DNA of 64,000 bases from Pedosphaera sp. (GTDB lineage Bacteria > Verrucomicrobiota > Verrucomicrobiia > Limisphaerales > AAA164-E04): the NCBI GenBank assembly GCA_002690655.1, contig NZFL01000017.1, positions 172,430 through 236,429 of the forward strand, given 5' to 3'. Positions within the stretch are counted from its first letter, which is position 1. Every line of letters begins with the position of its first letter. This document shows, piece after piece, positions 55,918 to 61,767 of the stretch. Under the pieces are notes generated by a model. It did not search any database. It was not told the DNA's origin and was given only the letters and a program-made list of their open reading frames with translations. Both the position numbers and the translations under genes were made by a program.

Positions 55918-55971
55918 GTCATCAAAAATGGACTTAGCCACAACAAAGTGCAAGCCAAGGATTAAATCGCA

Positions 55972-56001
55972 TTGCCATAGCCATCACTCAAGCCATATTG
56001 T
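55972..56001 (+). promoter_or_regulatory. Candidate promoter of the phnA-phnY-kinase operon
   Basis: TTGCCA (55972-55977) and TATTGT (55996-56001) are 18 bases apart. The -10 box lies eight bases before the phnA ATG, so a transcript would be almost leaderless. This fits the lack of a Shine-Dalgarno sequence. The match to sigma-70 consensus is moderate. Confidence 0.3.
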
Positions 56002-56009
56002 AACAAAAC

Positions 56010-57260
56010 ATGACCGAAACGCAGATCAAAGCCACGACGATTGAAGTCAACGGAATCTCTTACGATCTCCCCCCAGCCCCTATTGCTGTCATTTGCCTTG
56101 ACGGCTCAGCGGACGCTTATTTAGATGCCGCGCTGGCGAGAGACGCCATGCCTAACCTGAAAAAAATCAGTATTACAGGATACCGAGGTCAGGCAAGAGG
56201 GGCTTTACCTTCATTTACAAATGTTAACAATGCATCAATCGTCACAGGATGCCCCCCTTCAACACATGGTATCTGCGGAAACTTTTTCCTGAATCCGGAT
56301 ACAGGAGAGGAAGTCATGATGAACTCAGCCTCCTTTCTTCGAAGCGCTACGATCATGTCGGCTGCTGCCAAGGCTGGACGAAAAGTCGGGGTTGTTACTG
56401 CCAAAGAAAAATTAAGAGATATCTTTGCACACGAGCTTGAAGGGATCGCTTTCTCAACCGAAAAAGCCAATCAGTCCACCATGGAAAAACATGGTATTGA
56501 TGACGTAGAGGCATTGGTTGGCAAGGAAACACCATACATCTACAGCGGAGAGGCAAGTGTGTATGTGCTGGAGGCAGGTGTTGCTCTGCTTGAATCCGGC
56601 AGGTCCGATTTCCTTTACCTCTCCACTACCGACTATATGCAGCACACCTACGAGCCTGATGCTCCTGAATCAATTGAATTCTATCATCAATTGGACAAAG
56701 CTATGGGTAGGCTGCTTGAACTCGGGGCCCGCATCGGTATCACGGCAGACCACGGAATGAATGCAAAACAAGGGCCTGACGGCTCCCCAAATGTGATCTA
56801 CCTGGAAACGGAGTTGAGCAAAAGATTTGGCGATGGCTTTTCCGTCATCCTCCCTATCACTGATCCTTACGTCGTGCACCACGGCGCGCTGGGTTCATTT
56901 GCAGTCATTCATTGCCCAGAGGCGGCCAACAAAAACCAGATAGCAGAGTGGTGTGCTTCACAGAAAGGTGTCACCGAGGTTTACCACAAGGCAGAGGCTG
57001 CCAGCAAACTACAGCTGCCGGAGGATCGCCTGGGTGATATTGTTGTCTTGAGTGGTCGAGACATCGTGCTGGGTCGCACCCCAGCACACCATGACCTGAC
57101 AGCACTGAAAGTTGGCCTGAGATCGCATGGTGGAAGGTATGAGGAAATGGTACCGTTTATTTTTTCTGCGCCTCTGAAGCCAGATTTCCACCAGAAGGGA
57201 CTTGGCGACCCAAGGAATTTTGAAGTTTTTAGTTATACCATCAACGGACTTCAGGATTAA
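56010..57260 (+). CDS. phnA: Phosphonoacetate hydrolase
   Basis: This 416-residue alkaline-phosphatase-superfamily enzyme splits phosphonoacetate into acetate and phosphate using two zinc ions. The nucleophile and metal residues fit: Asp31 (ICLDGS), Thr70 (PSFTNVNNASIVTG), Asp208 and His212 (STTDYMQHTYEPD), Asp247-His248 (ITADHGMN) and His373 (RSHGGRYEEM). Together with the adjacent phnY it makes a two-enzyme path from phosphonoacetaldehyde to acetate. It does not need phosphate starvation in the bacteria where it was studied. It is the first gene of the operon. Confidence 0.95.
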   Translation: MTETQIKATTIEVNGISYDLPPAPIAVICLDGSADAYLDAALARDAMPNLKKISITGYRGQARGALPSFTNVNNASIVTGCPPSTHGICGNFFLNPDTGEEVMMNSASFLRSATIMSAAAKAGRKVGVVTAKEKLRDIFAHELEGIAFSTEKANQSTMEKHGIDDVEALVGKETPYIYSGEASVYVLEAGVALLESGRSDFLYLSTTDYMQHTYEPDAPESIEFYHQLDKAMGRLLELGARIGITADHGMNAKQGPDGSPNVIYLETELSKRFGDGFSVILPITDPYVVHHGALGSFAVIHCPEAANKNQIAEWCASQKGVTEVYHKAEAASKLQLPEDRLGDIVVLSGRDIVLGRTPAHHDLTALKVGLRSHGGRYEEMVPFIFSAPLKPDFHQKGLGDPRNFEVFSYTINGLQD

Positions 57261-57280
57261 AAACTATCTTCTGAGAAATT

Positions 57281-58702
57281 ATGATACCTGATTACCACTG
57301 TTTGATAGCAGGCGAGCCAGTCAAATCTGATCGATTTGTCGAAGTAGAAAATCCATATAATAATGCAATCGTAGGGAGGGTCTCCGAATGTAATGCAGCG
57401 CATACCGAAAAAGCTATCCAATCCGCATTGAGCAGCAATTCTCGTCTGACTCGCTATGAACGTTTTGAGATACTCGACAAGACGCGTCGTGATTTGTTGT
57501 CCAAGAAAGAAGAGTTTGCCAAACTGATCACATCCGAGGCTGGACTTTGCATGCGGGAAACGCTGTATGAAGTAGGCAGAGCGTGTGATGTTTTGCAGTT
57601 TTCAGCTATGGAAGCGCTCAAAGATGATGGTCAAATATTCAGCTGTGACGTTTCTCCACAGGGAAAAGCACGCAAGATTTTTACAATCCGCGAGCCTCTG
57701 AACGCCGCGGTGGCAATCACCCCGTTCAATCACCCACTCAATCAGGTAGCCCATAAATTGGGACCGGCAATCGCAGCTGGCACTCCAATCATCTTAAAAC
57801 CTTCAGAAAAAACCCCTCTGACGGCTATCAGACTTGCAGAACTTCTCTACAAAAACGGACTCCCAGGCTGGATGTTGAGCGTCGTCCTCGGAGCCACTGC
57901 GGAAGTTGCCGAACCACTCGTGCTGGACGAACGCGTTGAATTGGTAAGTTTCACCGGCAGCGTTGCTGTTGGAAAGCACATTTCCAGGACTGCAGGTTAT
58001 AAGAAATTGGTCCTTGAACTGGGAGGGAATGATCCATTGATCATCCTTGAAGATGCCGACATGGACCTGGCATTGCACCTTGCCTGTGAAGGATCGTTTC
58101 GAAACTCAGGCCAAAGATGCACGGCAGTTAAACGTATATTGGTTCACAAATCTTTGGTGAAATCATTCACGGAAGCATTTGTCAAAAAAGCAGAGACATA
58201 TCGTTCGGGGGATCCTGCATCCATGGATACCAGAGTCGGGACTGTGATTGACGAGGCTTCTGCAAAACGACTGGAATCATCTGTCAGGGAAGCCGTAGAA
58301 CAAGGAGCAAAGGTTCTTTTGGGTGGTAATCGAAATGGTGCTCTTCTCGAACCAACGGTGATATCCAATGTTCGACGTGATGCAAAAATGATCACCAGCG
58401 AATCATTTGGTCCTCTCGCTCCCATACTTGCTGTTGACGATATCGAGGATGCCATAGGATTGGCAAACTCAACACCCTACGGTTTATCATCCGGCGTCGT
58501 AACAAACAACATGGAGCACGCATTAAAGGCCGTAAGGGAGTTAAGGTGCGGCACTGTCAATATCAACGAAGTTCCCGGATATCGAATTGAATGCTCCCCT
58601 TTTGGAGGCATTAAAAACTCGGGACTGGGCATCAAGGAAGGTGTCATCGAAGCCATCAAATGCATGACCACCGTCAAAACTTTCTCTATGCCCTGGGGAT
58701 AA
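57281..58702 (+). CDS. phnY: Phosphonoacetaldehyde dehydrogenase
   Basis: The 473-residue NAD-dependent aldehyde dehydrogenase has its catalytic Cys280 in NSGQRCTAVKRILVH and its general base Glu246 in LELGGNDP, with the usual spacing of 34 residues. The cofactor-binding motif SFTGSVAVGKHISR is intact. Adjacency to phnA, 20 bases downstream, identifies its product: it oxidises phosphonoacetaldehyde to phosphonoacetate. Such enzymes are named PhnY; a generic aldehyde dehydrogenase is the alternative on sequence alone. Its 3' end overlaps the start of the kinase gene. Confidence 0.9.
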   Translation: MIPDYHCLIAGEPVKSDRFVEVENPYNNAIVGRVSECNAAHTEKAIQSALSSNSRLTRYERFEILDKTRRDLLSKKEEFAKLITSEAGLCMRETLYEVGRACDVLQFSAMEALKDDGQIFSCDVSPQGKARKIFTIREPLNAAVAITPFNHPLNQVAHKLGPAIAAGTPIILKPSEKTPLTAIRLAELLYKNGLPGWMLSVVLGATAEVAEPLVLDERVELVSFTGSVAVGKHISRTAGYKKLVLELGGNDPLIILEDADMDLALHLACEGSFRNSGQRCTAVKRILVHKSLVKSFTEAFVKKAETYRSGDPASMDTRVGTVIDEASAKRLESSVREAVEQGAKVLLGGNRNGALLEPTVISNVRRDAKMITSESFGPLAPILAVDDIEDAIGLANSTPYGLSSGVVTNNMEHALKAVRELRCGTVNINEVPGYRIECSPFGGIKNSGLGIKEGVIEAIKCMTTVKTFSMPWG

Positions 58703-61700
58703 TCAGGTTCATCTGCCTGGACAAACTGCTTGCGCTGTGTCTGTTGATAACGGCTGAGTCTGCTGCTCGATCAGGCAGCGCAGCAGACTGGAAGCACTTT
58801 ACCATGTCGGACGGCCTGCCGAGCGCTGGGGTCGCAGGCGTCACGTTCAGTTCCAAAGAGAAGGTTTGGCTGAGATATCAGGATTCAAATACCATCAGCG
58901 AATTTGACGGCTATGACATCGCTAGTCTTCAGGTTCCAGACCTGACGGCTAGCAAAGTCTATGAAAGCCGCTCGGGACAGATTTGGGCCATCCATCCCAC
59001 GGGCCTGCATCTCTGGTCCAAAAGCGAATGGCAGTCATTCAGTGTGCCTGCAATCGCAGCTGCTTATCGGAAGGTGGTTCAGCGCTTGCGCAGTCCCGTT
59101 TCACTTATCCCTCTGCAAATCAATCAATGCCTGATTCTTGCAAATGATTCTTTGCATCTTTTCAATGCAAGTCCCTACTTCGTGAAGCAAGTCCATGATC
59201 TTAACTCAAGTGTGATGGCACCATTCTCTGAAGTCATGGAGTGTAAAAACGGAGATGTCCTTTTAGCTGGAACAGGCGGGATTATATGGTTTGCCGGCCC
59301 CGCAAAGGACATAGAACAAACAGCTCATCGCTCAGTGAACATGCCGGAGGAAATACAGGACTATCAACTAACTACCCCATTGGAAAATGCGAATGAGGTT
59401 TTTACCTTCATAGGCAAAAAAGAGGGCAAACCCAGAATTGCGGTTCGTTTAGAGGGAAATACGTGGTCATGGTCTCGAATCCCTCCAAAAATAAAACTGC
59501 AGACATATTGGCATGATGCAGGCGGCTTTGGATGGGGAACTTCTTTTAATGGTCTCTACAACATCGATATAGAAAACGATTCAGTCGAATTATCCAATGC
59601 CCTCGAGGCTGGTTTGATTTTTGATGTGATATCAGACGGGGCAGGTCATTTCTGGATTGCGACAAGCGAAGGTTTGTCTCGGCAATCACCCTCATACTGG
59701 CAACTTGCACATCCTGAGTTAGGTGAATCAACGGTTTTTGATATTGCCAGAGATCGTAAAAATCATTTGTGGATGGTCACGGAGGATGCACTGATGACTT
59801 TTGACGAAAAAGGCTCTCATACTATCAATTGGCCTGAATCTCTGGAACGCATATTCAAAGGAAACCAATGCCTGTTCACCTTGCCTAATGGCTGGATTGG
59901 TGTTAATTCAGGAAATGGTCCCATTCTATTTTCTCCAGAAGCCAACTCGTTCCGTCAGATAAAATCTCCGGTCAAGAATGAAGAAGTGATCAAAATCCTG
60001 GGCAACCAGATTAACGGCGATATTGTAGTGCAGGTTAGTTCTGCGCAAAGTGATTCACATGGAATTTTTTGGACTTTCAATGGTGAATCTTTCGATGCAC
60101 TAGAAATCGATTTTGCCCCTGATATCGATGCATCTGAATATTTCTGGACCACTGAACTACCACCTGAAATATGGTTCGGAGCAAAAGATGGCATTGCCTA
60201 TGCTAATGGCAAACAGTGGGTTCAATTTGAGGCAGAGGAAGGTCTAAGCACAGACGTCCCTCATTGCATGCTTGAATTGAAGGACGGTCGACTGTGGCTT
60301 GGGGCAGGTTCCTACATTTATGAACTTCAAAGCAATCGATGGGTGCAAATCTATTTCGCAAGGGAAAAGATCAATGATCTTCTTGAAGCAAGGGATGGGA
60401 CGATCTGGGTAGCGTCCAACAATGGAGTACATCGCTACTTTCAGAAAACATGGTTGACTCACAACACAATTGAAGGCCTTCCCAGCAACACGGTTTACAT
60501 GCTCTATGAAGATGTGACAGGCAGTGTCTTTGCCGCAACAACTCGCGGTGTCTCACGCTATGCCCCGCAATCAGATATGGAAGCTCCCATTACGAATATT
60601 GAAATCCCCAAAGAAAGCAGCCAAAAGGACATAAAGCGCGGAACAGTGGTGACATTCAACAGTATCGACAAATGGGAACATACACCGAACGAGAGGCTTC
60701 TGTATTCCTACCGTCAGGACAATGAAGTCTGGCATCCATTTTCATATACAAACAATATCATTCTCGGAGACTTGCCTGCAGGAATTCACAAAATTGAAGT
60801 GCAGGCGATGGATCGAAATGGCAATATTGAAGTTCAACCACCTATTTTCCGCTTCAATTTCACCATCCCGTGGAATGAGGACCCCCGGCTGATGACCATG
60901 ACATGGGCGGCAGCTATCATTACTTTGATACTCACAGGGTTCGCCATTAATCGACATCAACAATTGAAGCGAAGCTATGCGGAGGTCGAAAAAATTGTTG
61001 ATATCCGAACAAAGGAATTAGAACAGGCCAACAAAGAGCTCCTTCAGGATCAAAAGATGAAGGCGCTTGGTACATTGGCCTCTGGAATCGCCCATGATTT
61101 CAATAGTATTCTTTCCATCATCAAAGGCTCCATACAAATCATCGAAGAGAATCCTAGCGATACTGATAAATTGCGAAAACGTGTAGGTCGAATGCATTCA
61201 GTCGTGGATCAGGGAGCTGGTATTGTTCAATCCATGCTTGGATATGTAAGGCGAAAAAATGAACCCTCTCATTTATATGATTTGAATAACGTAGTTCTGG
61301 AGGCCATACGATTTTCGAAGGACCAACAATCAACACAATCCATTGAATACCACGCAAACCCCACGATAGGAGAACTGAAAATGGCTCCTGATCTTGTTAA
61401 GCAAATCCTGATCAATTTAATTAATAATGCGGCTGATTCCATGGATCATGATGGCGTTGTGGGCATTCATTTGAATTTATTCAAGTCGTTCGCAGGTCAC
61501 GTAGCCTTGAAGCCAAGCAAAGCAGATAACTATGCTGTGCTGAGAATAATGGACAGCGGAGTTGGGATATCAGAGGAAATTGTGAGTCGAATATTCGAAC
61601 CATTTTATACAACAAAGGCCTTTTCATCGAGACGCGGCACCGGTCTTGGACTGTCGATGGTCTACGAAATGGCCAAGGAAATGGGCGCTGGACTCAGTGT

Positions 61701-61767
61701 TGATTCCAAACCGGGGCAAGGAAGTCAGTTTTTTGTCTATTTCCCGATGGAGAAAAGTTATCATTAA
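58660..61767 (+). CDS. Beta-propeller membrane sensor histidine kinase linked to phnA-phnY
   Basis: The 1035-residue protein has a short signal (FICLDKLLALCLLITAES). Reg_prop-type propeller repeats follow, such as GHFWIATSEGLSRQSP, GRLWLGAGSYIYELQS and GTIWVASNNGVHRYFQ. A Y_Y_Y beta domain (LLYSYRQDNEVWHPFSYTNN, LPAGIHKIEVQAMDRNGNI) and one membrane segment near 744-763 come next. A dimerisation helix carries His812 (GIAHDFNSIL). The ATPase domain has the N box NLINNAADSM near 918, GVGISEEIVSRIFEPFYTTK, and GTGLGLSMVYEMA near 993. There is no receiver or DNA-binding domain, and no response regulator is seen in the window. The start overlaps phnY by 43 bases. Periplasmic ligand sensing is inferred, and phosphonates are only a guess. 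Confidence 0.88.
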   Translation: MHDHRQNFLYALGIIRFICLDKLLALCLLITAESAARSGSAADWKHFTMSDGLPSAGVAGVTFSSKEKVWLRYQDSNTISEFDGYDIASLQVPDLTASKVYESRSGQIWAIHPTGLHLWSKSEWQSFSVPAIAAAYRKVVQRLRSPVSLIPLQINQCLILANDSLHLFNASPYFVKQVHDLNSSVMAPFSEVMECKNGDVLLAGTGGIIWFAGPAKDIEQTAHRSVNMPEEIQDYQLTTPLENANEVFTFIGKKEGKPRIAVRLEGNTWSWSRIPPKIKLQTYWHDAGGFGWGTSFNGLYNIDIENDSVELSNALEAGLIFDVISDGAGHFWIATSEGLSRQSPSYWQLAHPELGESTVFDIARDRKNHLWMVTEDALMTFDEKGSHTINWPESLERIFKGNQCLFTLPNGWIGVNSGNGPILFSPEANSFRQIKSPVKNEEVIKILGNQINGDIVVQVSSAQSDSHGIFWTFNGESFDALEIDFAPDIDASEYFWTTELPPEIWFGAKDGIAYANGKQWVQFEAEEGLSTDVPHCMLELKDGRLWLGAGSYIYELQSNRWVQIYFAREKINDLLEARDGTIWVASNNGVHRYFQKTWLTHNTIEGLPSNTVYMLYEDVTGSVFAATTRGVSRYAPQSDMEAPITNIEIPKESSQKDIKRGTVVTFNSIDKWEHTPNERLLYSYRQDNEVWHPFSYTNNIILGDLPAGIHKIEVQAMDRNGNIEVQPPIFRFNFTIPWNEDPRLMTMTWAAAIITLILTGFAINRHQQLKRSYAEVEKIVDIRTKELEQANKELLQDQKMKALGTLASGIAHDFNSILSIIKGSIQIIEENPSDTDKLRKRVGRMHSVVDQGAGIVQSMLGYVRRKNEPSHLYDLNNVVLEAIRFSKDQQSTQSIEYHANPTIGELKMAPDLVKQILINLINNAADSMDHDGVVGIHLNLFKSFAGHVALKPSKADNYAVLRIMDSGVGISEEIVSRIFEPFYTTKAFSSRRGTGLGLSMVYEMAKEMGAGLSVDSKPGQGSQFFVYFPMEKSYH

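Follow-up and report, generated by a model that had tools for sequence, protein, structure and literature searches.

A propeller histidine kinase beside phnA-phnY in Pedosphaera sp. is probably the relocated sensor of a two-component system for pilin-like proteins

Introduction

Type IV pilin or secretion genes can be under two-component control, for which PilS/PilR is an example. Known phosphonate operons are controlled by the LysR regulators PhnR and AepR and by PhoBR, CbrAB and NtrBC; LysR regulators are a recurring feature of phnA/phnWAY operons in proteobacteria (PMC10574752). The original prediction for the locus described here held that a phnA-phnY operon is usually run by a LysR-type regulator. 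This applies to proteobacteria; in the present phylum, no LysR family recurred among the 99 phnA-flanking open reading frames of Verrucomicrobiota that were scanned (L061-L196). Four AraC/XylR-type regulators recurred in the same set.

The analysed stretch of 64,000 nucleotides from Pedosphaera sp. (contig NZFL01000017.1) is called the window in this report. It contains phnA and phnY, followed by the gene of a propeller histidine kinase that had been proposed to sense extracellular phosphonate.

Results

Genes of the phnA locus

The window contains the following features.

55970–56012, + strand: promoter-like block of phnA (CATTGCC ... TAGTCT/TATTGT ... ACATG), conserved in an alignment of six genomes of the genera g1 and g2
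56010–57260, + strand: phnA, phosphonoacetate hydrolase, 416 aa
57281–58702, + strand: phnY, phosphonoacetaldehyde dehydrogenase, 473 aa
58660–61767, + strand: propeller sensor histidine kinase, 1035 aa
61797–63179, − strand: DUF5690 protein, 460 aa, convergent with the kinase (PF18943, 431 bits)

PhnA and PhnY score above the equivalog cut-offs of their NCBIfam models (TIGR02335, 483.7 against 407.55 bits; TIGR03250, 642.7 against 635.65 bits), PhnY being near its cut-off. Orthologs of phnA are present in 68 of the 196 relatives (about 200) that form the comparison sample, and phnY adjoins phnA in most relatives. The genome of the window (G000) has phnW on another contig (G000:C4:77145-78209; TIGR02326, 457 against 400.8). 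Thus, the conversion of 2-aminoethylphosphonate via phosphonoacetaldehyde and phosphonoacetate to acetate and phosphate can be complete. In the near-identical genome G003, phnW is fragmented into two parts and contains an in-frame stop (G003:C4:83969-84768; L151, L153), owing to either decay or an assembly error.

A promoter-like match is located at 55972-55999 ahead of phnA; the region as a whole is not above chance, and promoter and terminator scans gave matches no more numerous than in shuffled sequences.

The DUF5690 gene co-occurs with phnA (25/31 versus 35/154, p = 1.6e-9, Fisher test; the Fisher values in this report ignore shared ancestry). It is found a few kb from phnA in several families and in another order, and recurs beside phnA/phnW/phnY in the window and at L064, L068, L165, L166 and L167. 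Its product is a candidate phosphonate or organophosphate permease. A literature search that reached few subscription journals retrieved no paper naming DUF5690. In some Verrucomicrobia, the neighbours of phnWAY or phnWX include the gene of AepP, a permease of the organophosphate-antiporter type (PMC8316502), and relatives of AepP-like transporters are also present at the phnA loci examined here.

Domain organization of the kinase

The kinase begins with a signal-like segment, followed by a Reg_prop propeller (residues ~45-640), a weak Y_Y_Y match (~641-740) and a transmembrane segment (~745-763). The cytoplasmic part comprises HisKA with His812 and HATPase_c (910-1031). The Reg_prop repeats (55.7 bits, cut-off 20.4) and HATPase_c (79.3 bits, cut-off 26.4) are clearly assigned. 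HisKA scores just below its cut-off (24.0 versus 26.9), and His812 and the N, G1, F and G2 motifs of the core are intact. Y_Y_Y is below cut-off both here (E = 0.066) and in one ortholog (E = 2.6e-5). Profile matches include PDB entries 4a2l and 3v9f for the propeller (4a2l, E = 3e-37) and 5idj, a CckA-type protein, for the kinase core. The chain ends after HATPase_c, and a domain scan of the whole protein found no receiver or output domain; the kinase accordingly lacks the fused receiver and AraC-type output of a hybrid two-component system (HTCS). A search of the genome with Reg_prop alone gave no match, probably because this model is only 24 residues long. AlphaFold models of the kinase and the DUF5690 protein, based on three-sequence alignments, were set aside (mean pLDDT 40.5 and 35.9).

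The identities originally given to phnA, phnY and the kinase are borne out by the TIGR02335, TIGR03250, Reg_prop and HATPase_c scores. The open reading frames also confirm the reported arrangement, with all three genes on the + strand and junctions of +20 (phnA/phnY) and -43 bases (phnY/kinase).

The phnY-kinase linkage is restricted to two genera

Same-strand linkage of phnY and the kinase is found in five genomes from two genera of one Verrucomicrobiota family, namely G000, G003 and G004 (g1) and G007 and G005 (g2). Among named records, an uncultured Verrucomicrobiae MAG (97%) and Pedosphaera sp. ARS72 (46%) come closest. The region is broken by contig ends in G001 and G002. Since the contig of G002 stops within DUF5690, with the regulator described below about 8 kb away, a true absence of phnA and the kinase was rejected for this genome; an assembly break is most likely.

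The overlap of 43 bases depends on the ATG at 58660 and is present only here and in one genome of 97% identity. In G004, G005 and G007, which are more distant, the longest open reading frame of the kinase begins 86, 94 and 115 bases past phnY, respectively. Thus, the co-translation that had been proposed from the overlap is not a conserved feature. The kinase is probably co-transcribed with phnAY.

In the sister genus g3, G009 and G010 have phnA-phnY without an adjoining kinase; in G006 and G008, the kinase is present and phnA was not detected. The original prediction had named absence of the kinase from the phnA loci of relatives as evidence against a phosphonate sensor, and this is the situation outside the two genera: no homolog was found at 65 phnA loci (54 from within the order and 11 from elsewhere in the class; some of these loci are on short contigs). 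One unrelated histidine kinase domain (24%) is encoded kilobases off. Furthermore, kinase orthologs and phnA do not co-occur in genomes outside the family (32/83 versus 28/102, Fisher p = 0.12). The placement of the kinase appears to be a local peculiarity of the two genera.

Within these genera, the order phnY-kinase-DUF5690 survives a kinase identity of only 44-56%. An unrelated AsmA gene is kept in the same local gene block in g1 and g2. As this gene has no known phosphonate tie, plain synteny suffices to explain the conserved order.

Kinase orthologs and the probable response-regulator partner

Orthologs of the kinase are present in about half of the order with full-length identities of 31-37% (higher within g1/g2, as given above). 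In a tree of the histidine kinase domains, the window kinase is placed within the ortholog clade (99/97), apart from paralogs. The phn-linked kinases form a nested clade (100/100) on a long stem, which is sister to g3.

In other families, the kinase gene is followed by that of a REC-HTH protein of ~215 aa. Outside the family of the window, this regulator is directly downstream of the kinase in 46/74 genomes, and orthologs of both co-occur in 78/83 genomes versus 3/102 (Fisher p = 7e-42). Neighbouring and co-inherited genes are what is expected of a two-component pair. Within the family, all 11 genomes carry a single strong homolog of the regulator. In G000, it is an orphan outside the window:

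G000:C8:243299-243922 (window-equivalent 70870-71493), − strand: REC-HTH regulator, 9.1 kb past the kinase

The original prediction, which saw no response regulator in the window and placed the partner elsewhere, was right in this respect. The DHp region is near-constant in the phn-linked kinases (9/272 conserved columns are altered over the whole protein), which fits an unchanged partner.

In four g1/g2 genomes, the orphan regulator adjoins amidohydrolase and polyphosphate kinase genes (L120:16385-19901, L168, L170, L171). Ahead of the regulator gene, G000 and G002 have a 20-bp palindrome; it was not used because its copy in G003 is broken and other genera lack it. A paralogous kinase group is often followed immediately by a matching regulator with 44-53% identity (L197-L212); the pair has thus been duplicated in several genomes.

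A predicted DNA site and the genes behind it

The upstream regions of 17 kinase-regulator operons have a common inverted repeat, TGTGC-N8-GCACA, with 5 exact copies (at most 1 in shuffled sequences). Its fuller form is AACTGTGCGTTTG-N3-GCACACC. The TGTGCGTTTGNNNGCACA form (TGTGCGTTTG-N3-GCACA) has 57 exact matches in 97 genomes of the order, compared with 0 for a reversed control, and no match in the genomes sampled elsewhere in the class. The kinase is present in 26/27 genomes with site matches (p = 2e-9). The remaining genome, G086, is 56% complete, and its congener G036 contains a kinase fragment. Site-bearing genomes show no relation to phnA (p = 0.63). In several families, sites are located ahead of the kinase-regulator operon itself. 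Among the 97 genomes, an exact site is found in only 26 of the 52 that bear the system. Genus g3 has no exact site, and none precedes the kinase or the regulator in the family of the window.

For 54 fetched sites, which include GTCTG variants, a prepilin N-terminus is encoded behind 23, compared with 25 of 3000 random positions (0.8%; p = 5e-30). An ABC-2 permease is encoded behind 8/54 sites and 0/3000 random positions. The sole exact site of G000 is located 101 bp before the gene of a 294-aa prepilin-type protein (G000:C7:117797-118681; L217:4298-5182). The single site of G007 precedes the gene of its 80% identical ortholog, and G001, G003 and G004 each have a single site, before a prepilin-type gene. 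In g3, the kinase comes after a secretin/T2SSE ATPase operon. The above literature search also retrieved no matching paper for Verrucomicrobiota combined with prepilin and response-regulator motifs.

Eight copies of the site precede one ABC-2-type permease family (MRQF-TIA-NAFMELVRQPV) at L222, L229, L243, L253, L259, L261, L265 and L269. At L222, the permease is followed by an HflK-like protein.

The promoter-like block of phnA contains no copy of the site and has a background weight-matrix score; a half-site likeness (GTGCAA) was dropped on account of this score. For this predicted site, the upstream regions of phnA and of the phnY-kinase pair in five g1/g2 genomes likewise score at background. 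Neither conservation at the phnA loci of relatives outside the two genera nor the system's predicted site upstream of phnA, both expected of a phosphonate-responsive regulator, is observed.

The link between regulator and site is derived from operon upstream regions and from the phylogenetic profile, both of which are inflated by shared ancestry. Another regulator that was inherited with the system could be the binder.

Discussion

The kinase is probably the sensor of a conserved two-component system for pilin-like proteins that was relocated beside phnAY, and not a dedicated phosphonate sensor. The old, order-wide system would consist of an inner-membrane kinase with its propeller outside and a single-copy REC-HTH regulator, encoded by genes that are adjacent in most relatives and separated in the family of the window. 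In the ancestor of the two genera, the kinase gene would have moved between phnA-phnY and the DUF5690 gene. The propeller most likely senses an extracellular or surface cue. Most likely, the kinase still phosphorylates the same regulator (G000:C8:243299-243922) and the latter binds TGTGCGTTTG-N3-GCACA. Prepilin-type proteins would be controlled in this way, in G000 the 294-aa one, and in other genomes also the ABC-2 permease and the system's own operon. Several points count against this explanation. Another regulator may bind the site, and exact sites are found in only 26 of 52 genomes with the system, in none of g3 and not before either gene of the system in this family. Furthermore, chance relocation does not account for a gene order that is kept across two genera, nor for a position between two phosphonate-linked genes.

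This position could instead reflect recruitment of the kinase into the phnA-phnY operon in two genera. Its propeller would then detect extracellular 2-aminoethylphosphonate or phosphonoacetate and act on phnAY, perhaps also on DUF5690, via the old or another regulator. The same-strand linkage in all five genomes, the enclosure of the kinase by phnY and the phn-associated DUF5690 gene and the single clade of phn-linked kinases on its long stem are compatible with such a sensor. However, kinase and phn genes are not associated elsewhere, the propeller has not diverged unusually relative to the kinase core, phnA has no predicted regulator site, and the AsmA gene kept in g1/g2 suggests that the linkage may be plain synteny. 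Recruitment as a phosphonate sensor is therefore unlikely. The initial proposal that the kinase senses extracellular phosphonate is unsupported, since the kinase does not correlate with phnA and the predicted site is found before prepilin genes and not before phnA.

Somewhat less likely still, the kinase is a neutral passenger downstream of phnAY, read from the phnAY promoter or its own, and TGTGC-N8-GCACA belongs to the regulon of a different regulator, leaving the system without assigned targets; the sequence-based nature of the site-regulator link and the lack of exact sites in half of the genomes that bear the system, as well as ahead of the kinase and regulator genes of this family, would agree with this, but 26/27 site-bearing genomes hold the system and several families have sites ahead of the operon itself. 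It is similarly improbable that two genera co-opted an order-wide propeller system controlling pilin-like surface proteins for their phosphonate operon, with a single kinase linking the use of phosphonates to the expression of pilins.

Reading the kinase as a relocated sensor of a pilin-related system prevents a plausible but unsupported annotation, in which a propeller kinase becomes a phosphonate sensor from the neighbourhood in one genome. In a phylum of which few regulons have been mapped, it also offers a testable system with a kinase, a likely regulator, prepilin-type targets and a specific predicted DNA site.

Comparison with known systems

PhnR/AepR, PhoBR, CbrAB and NtrBC control phosphonate genes, and none of them is a propeller kinase; the window kinase, on the other hand, has no tie to phosphonate genes outside two genera. 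The locus resembles the PhnWAY pathway of 2-aminoethylphosphonate breakdown (Sinorhizobium meliloti and others) in its adjacent phnA and phnY and in the presence of phnW in the genome. It differs in that phnW is on another contig and no LysR gene is found beside phnA within the window. With the propeller sensors of Bacteroides hybrid two-component systems (PDB entries 4a2l, 3v9f and 3ott), the kinase has in common the Reg_prop propeller, one transmembrane helix and a histidine kinase, with a weak Y_Y_Y-like match between propeller and helix. In contrast to these, it has no fused receiver or output domain, a separate REC-HTH regulator and no polysaccharide locus beside it. Two-component control of pilin or secretion genes, as by PilS/PilR, is similar in combining a kinase and a regulator with putative sites before prepilin-type genes. 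The system described here differs in its propeller sensor and in its regulator, which is REC-HTH_11-like and lacks a sigma-54 domain, and its predicted targets are prepilin-type proteins of ~300 aa that are partly DUF1559-like.
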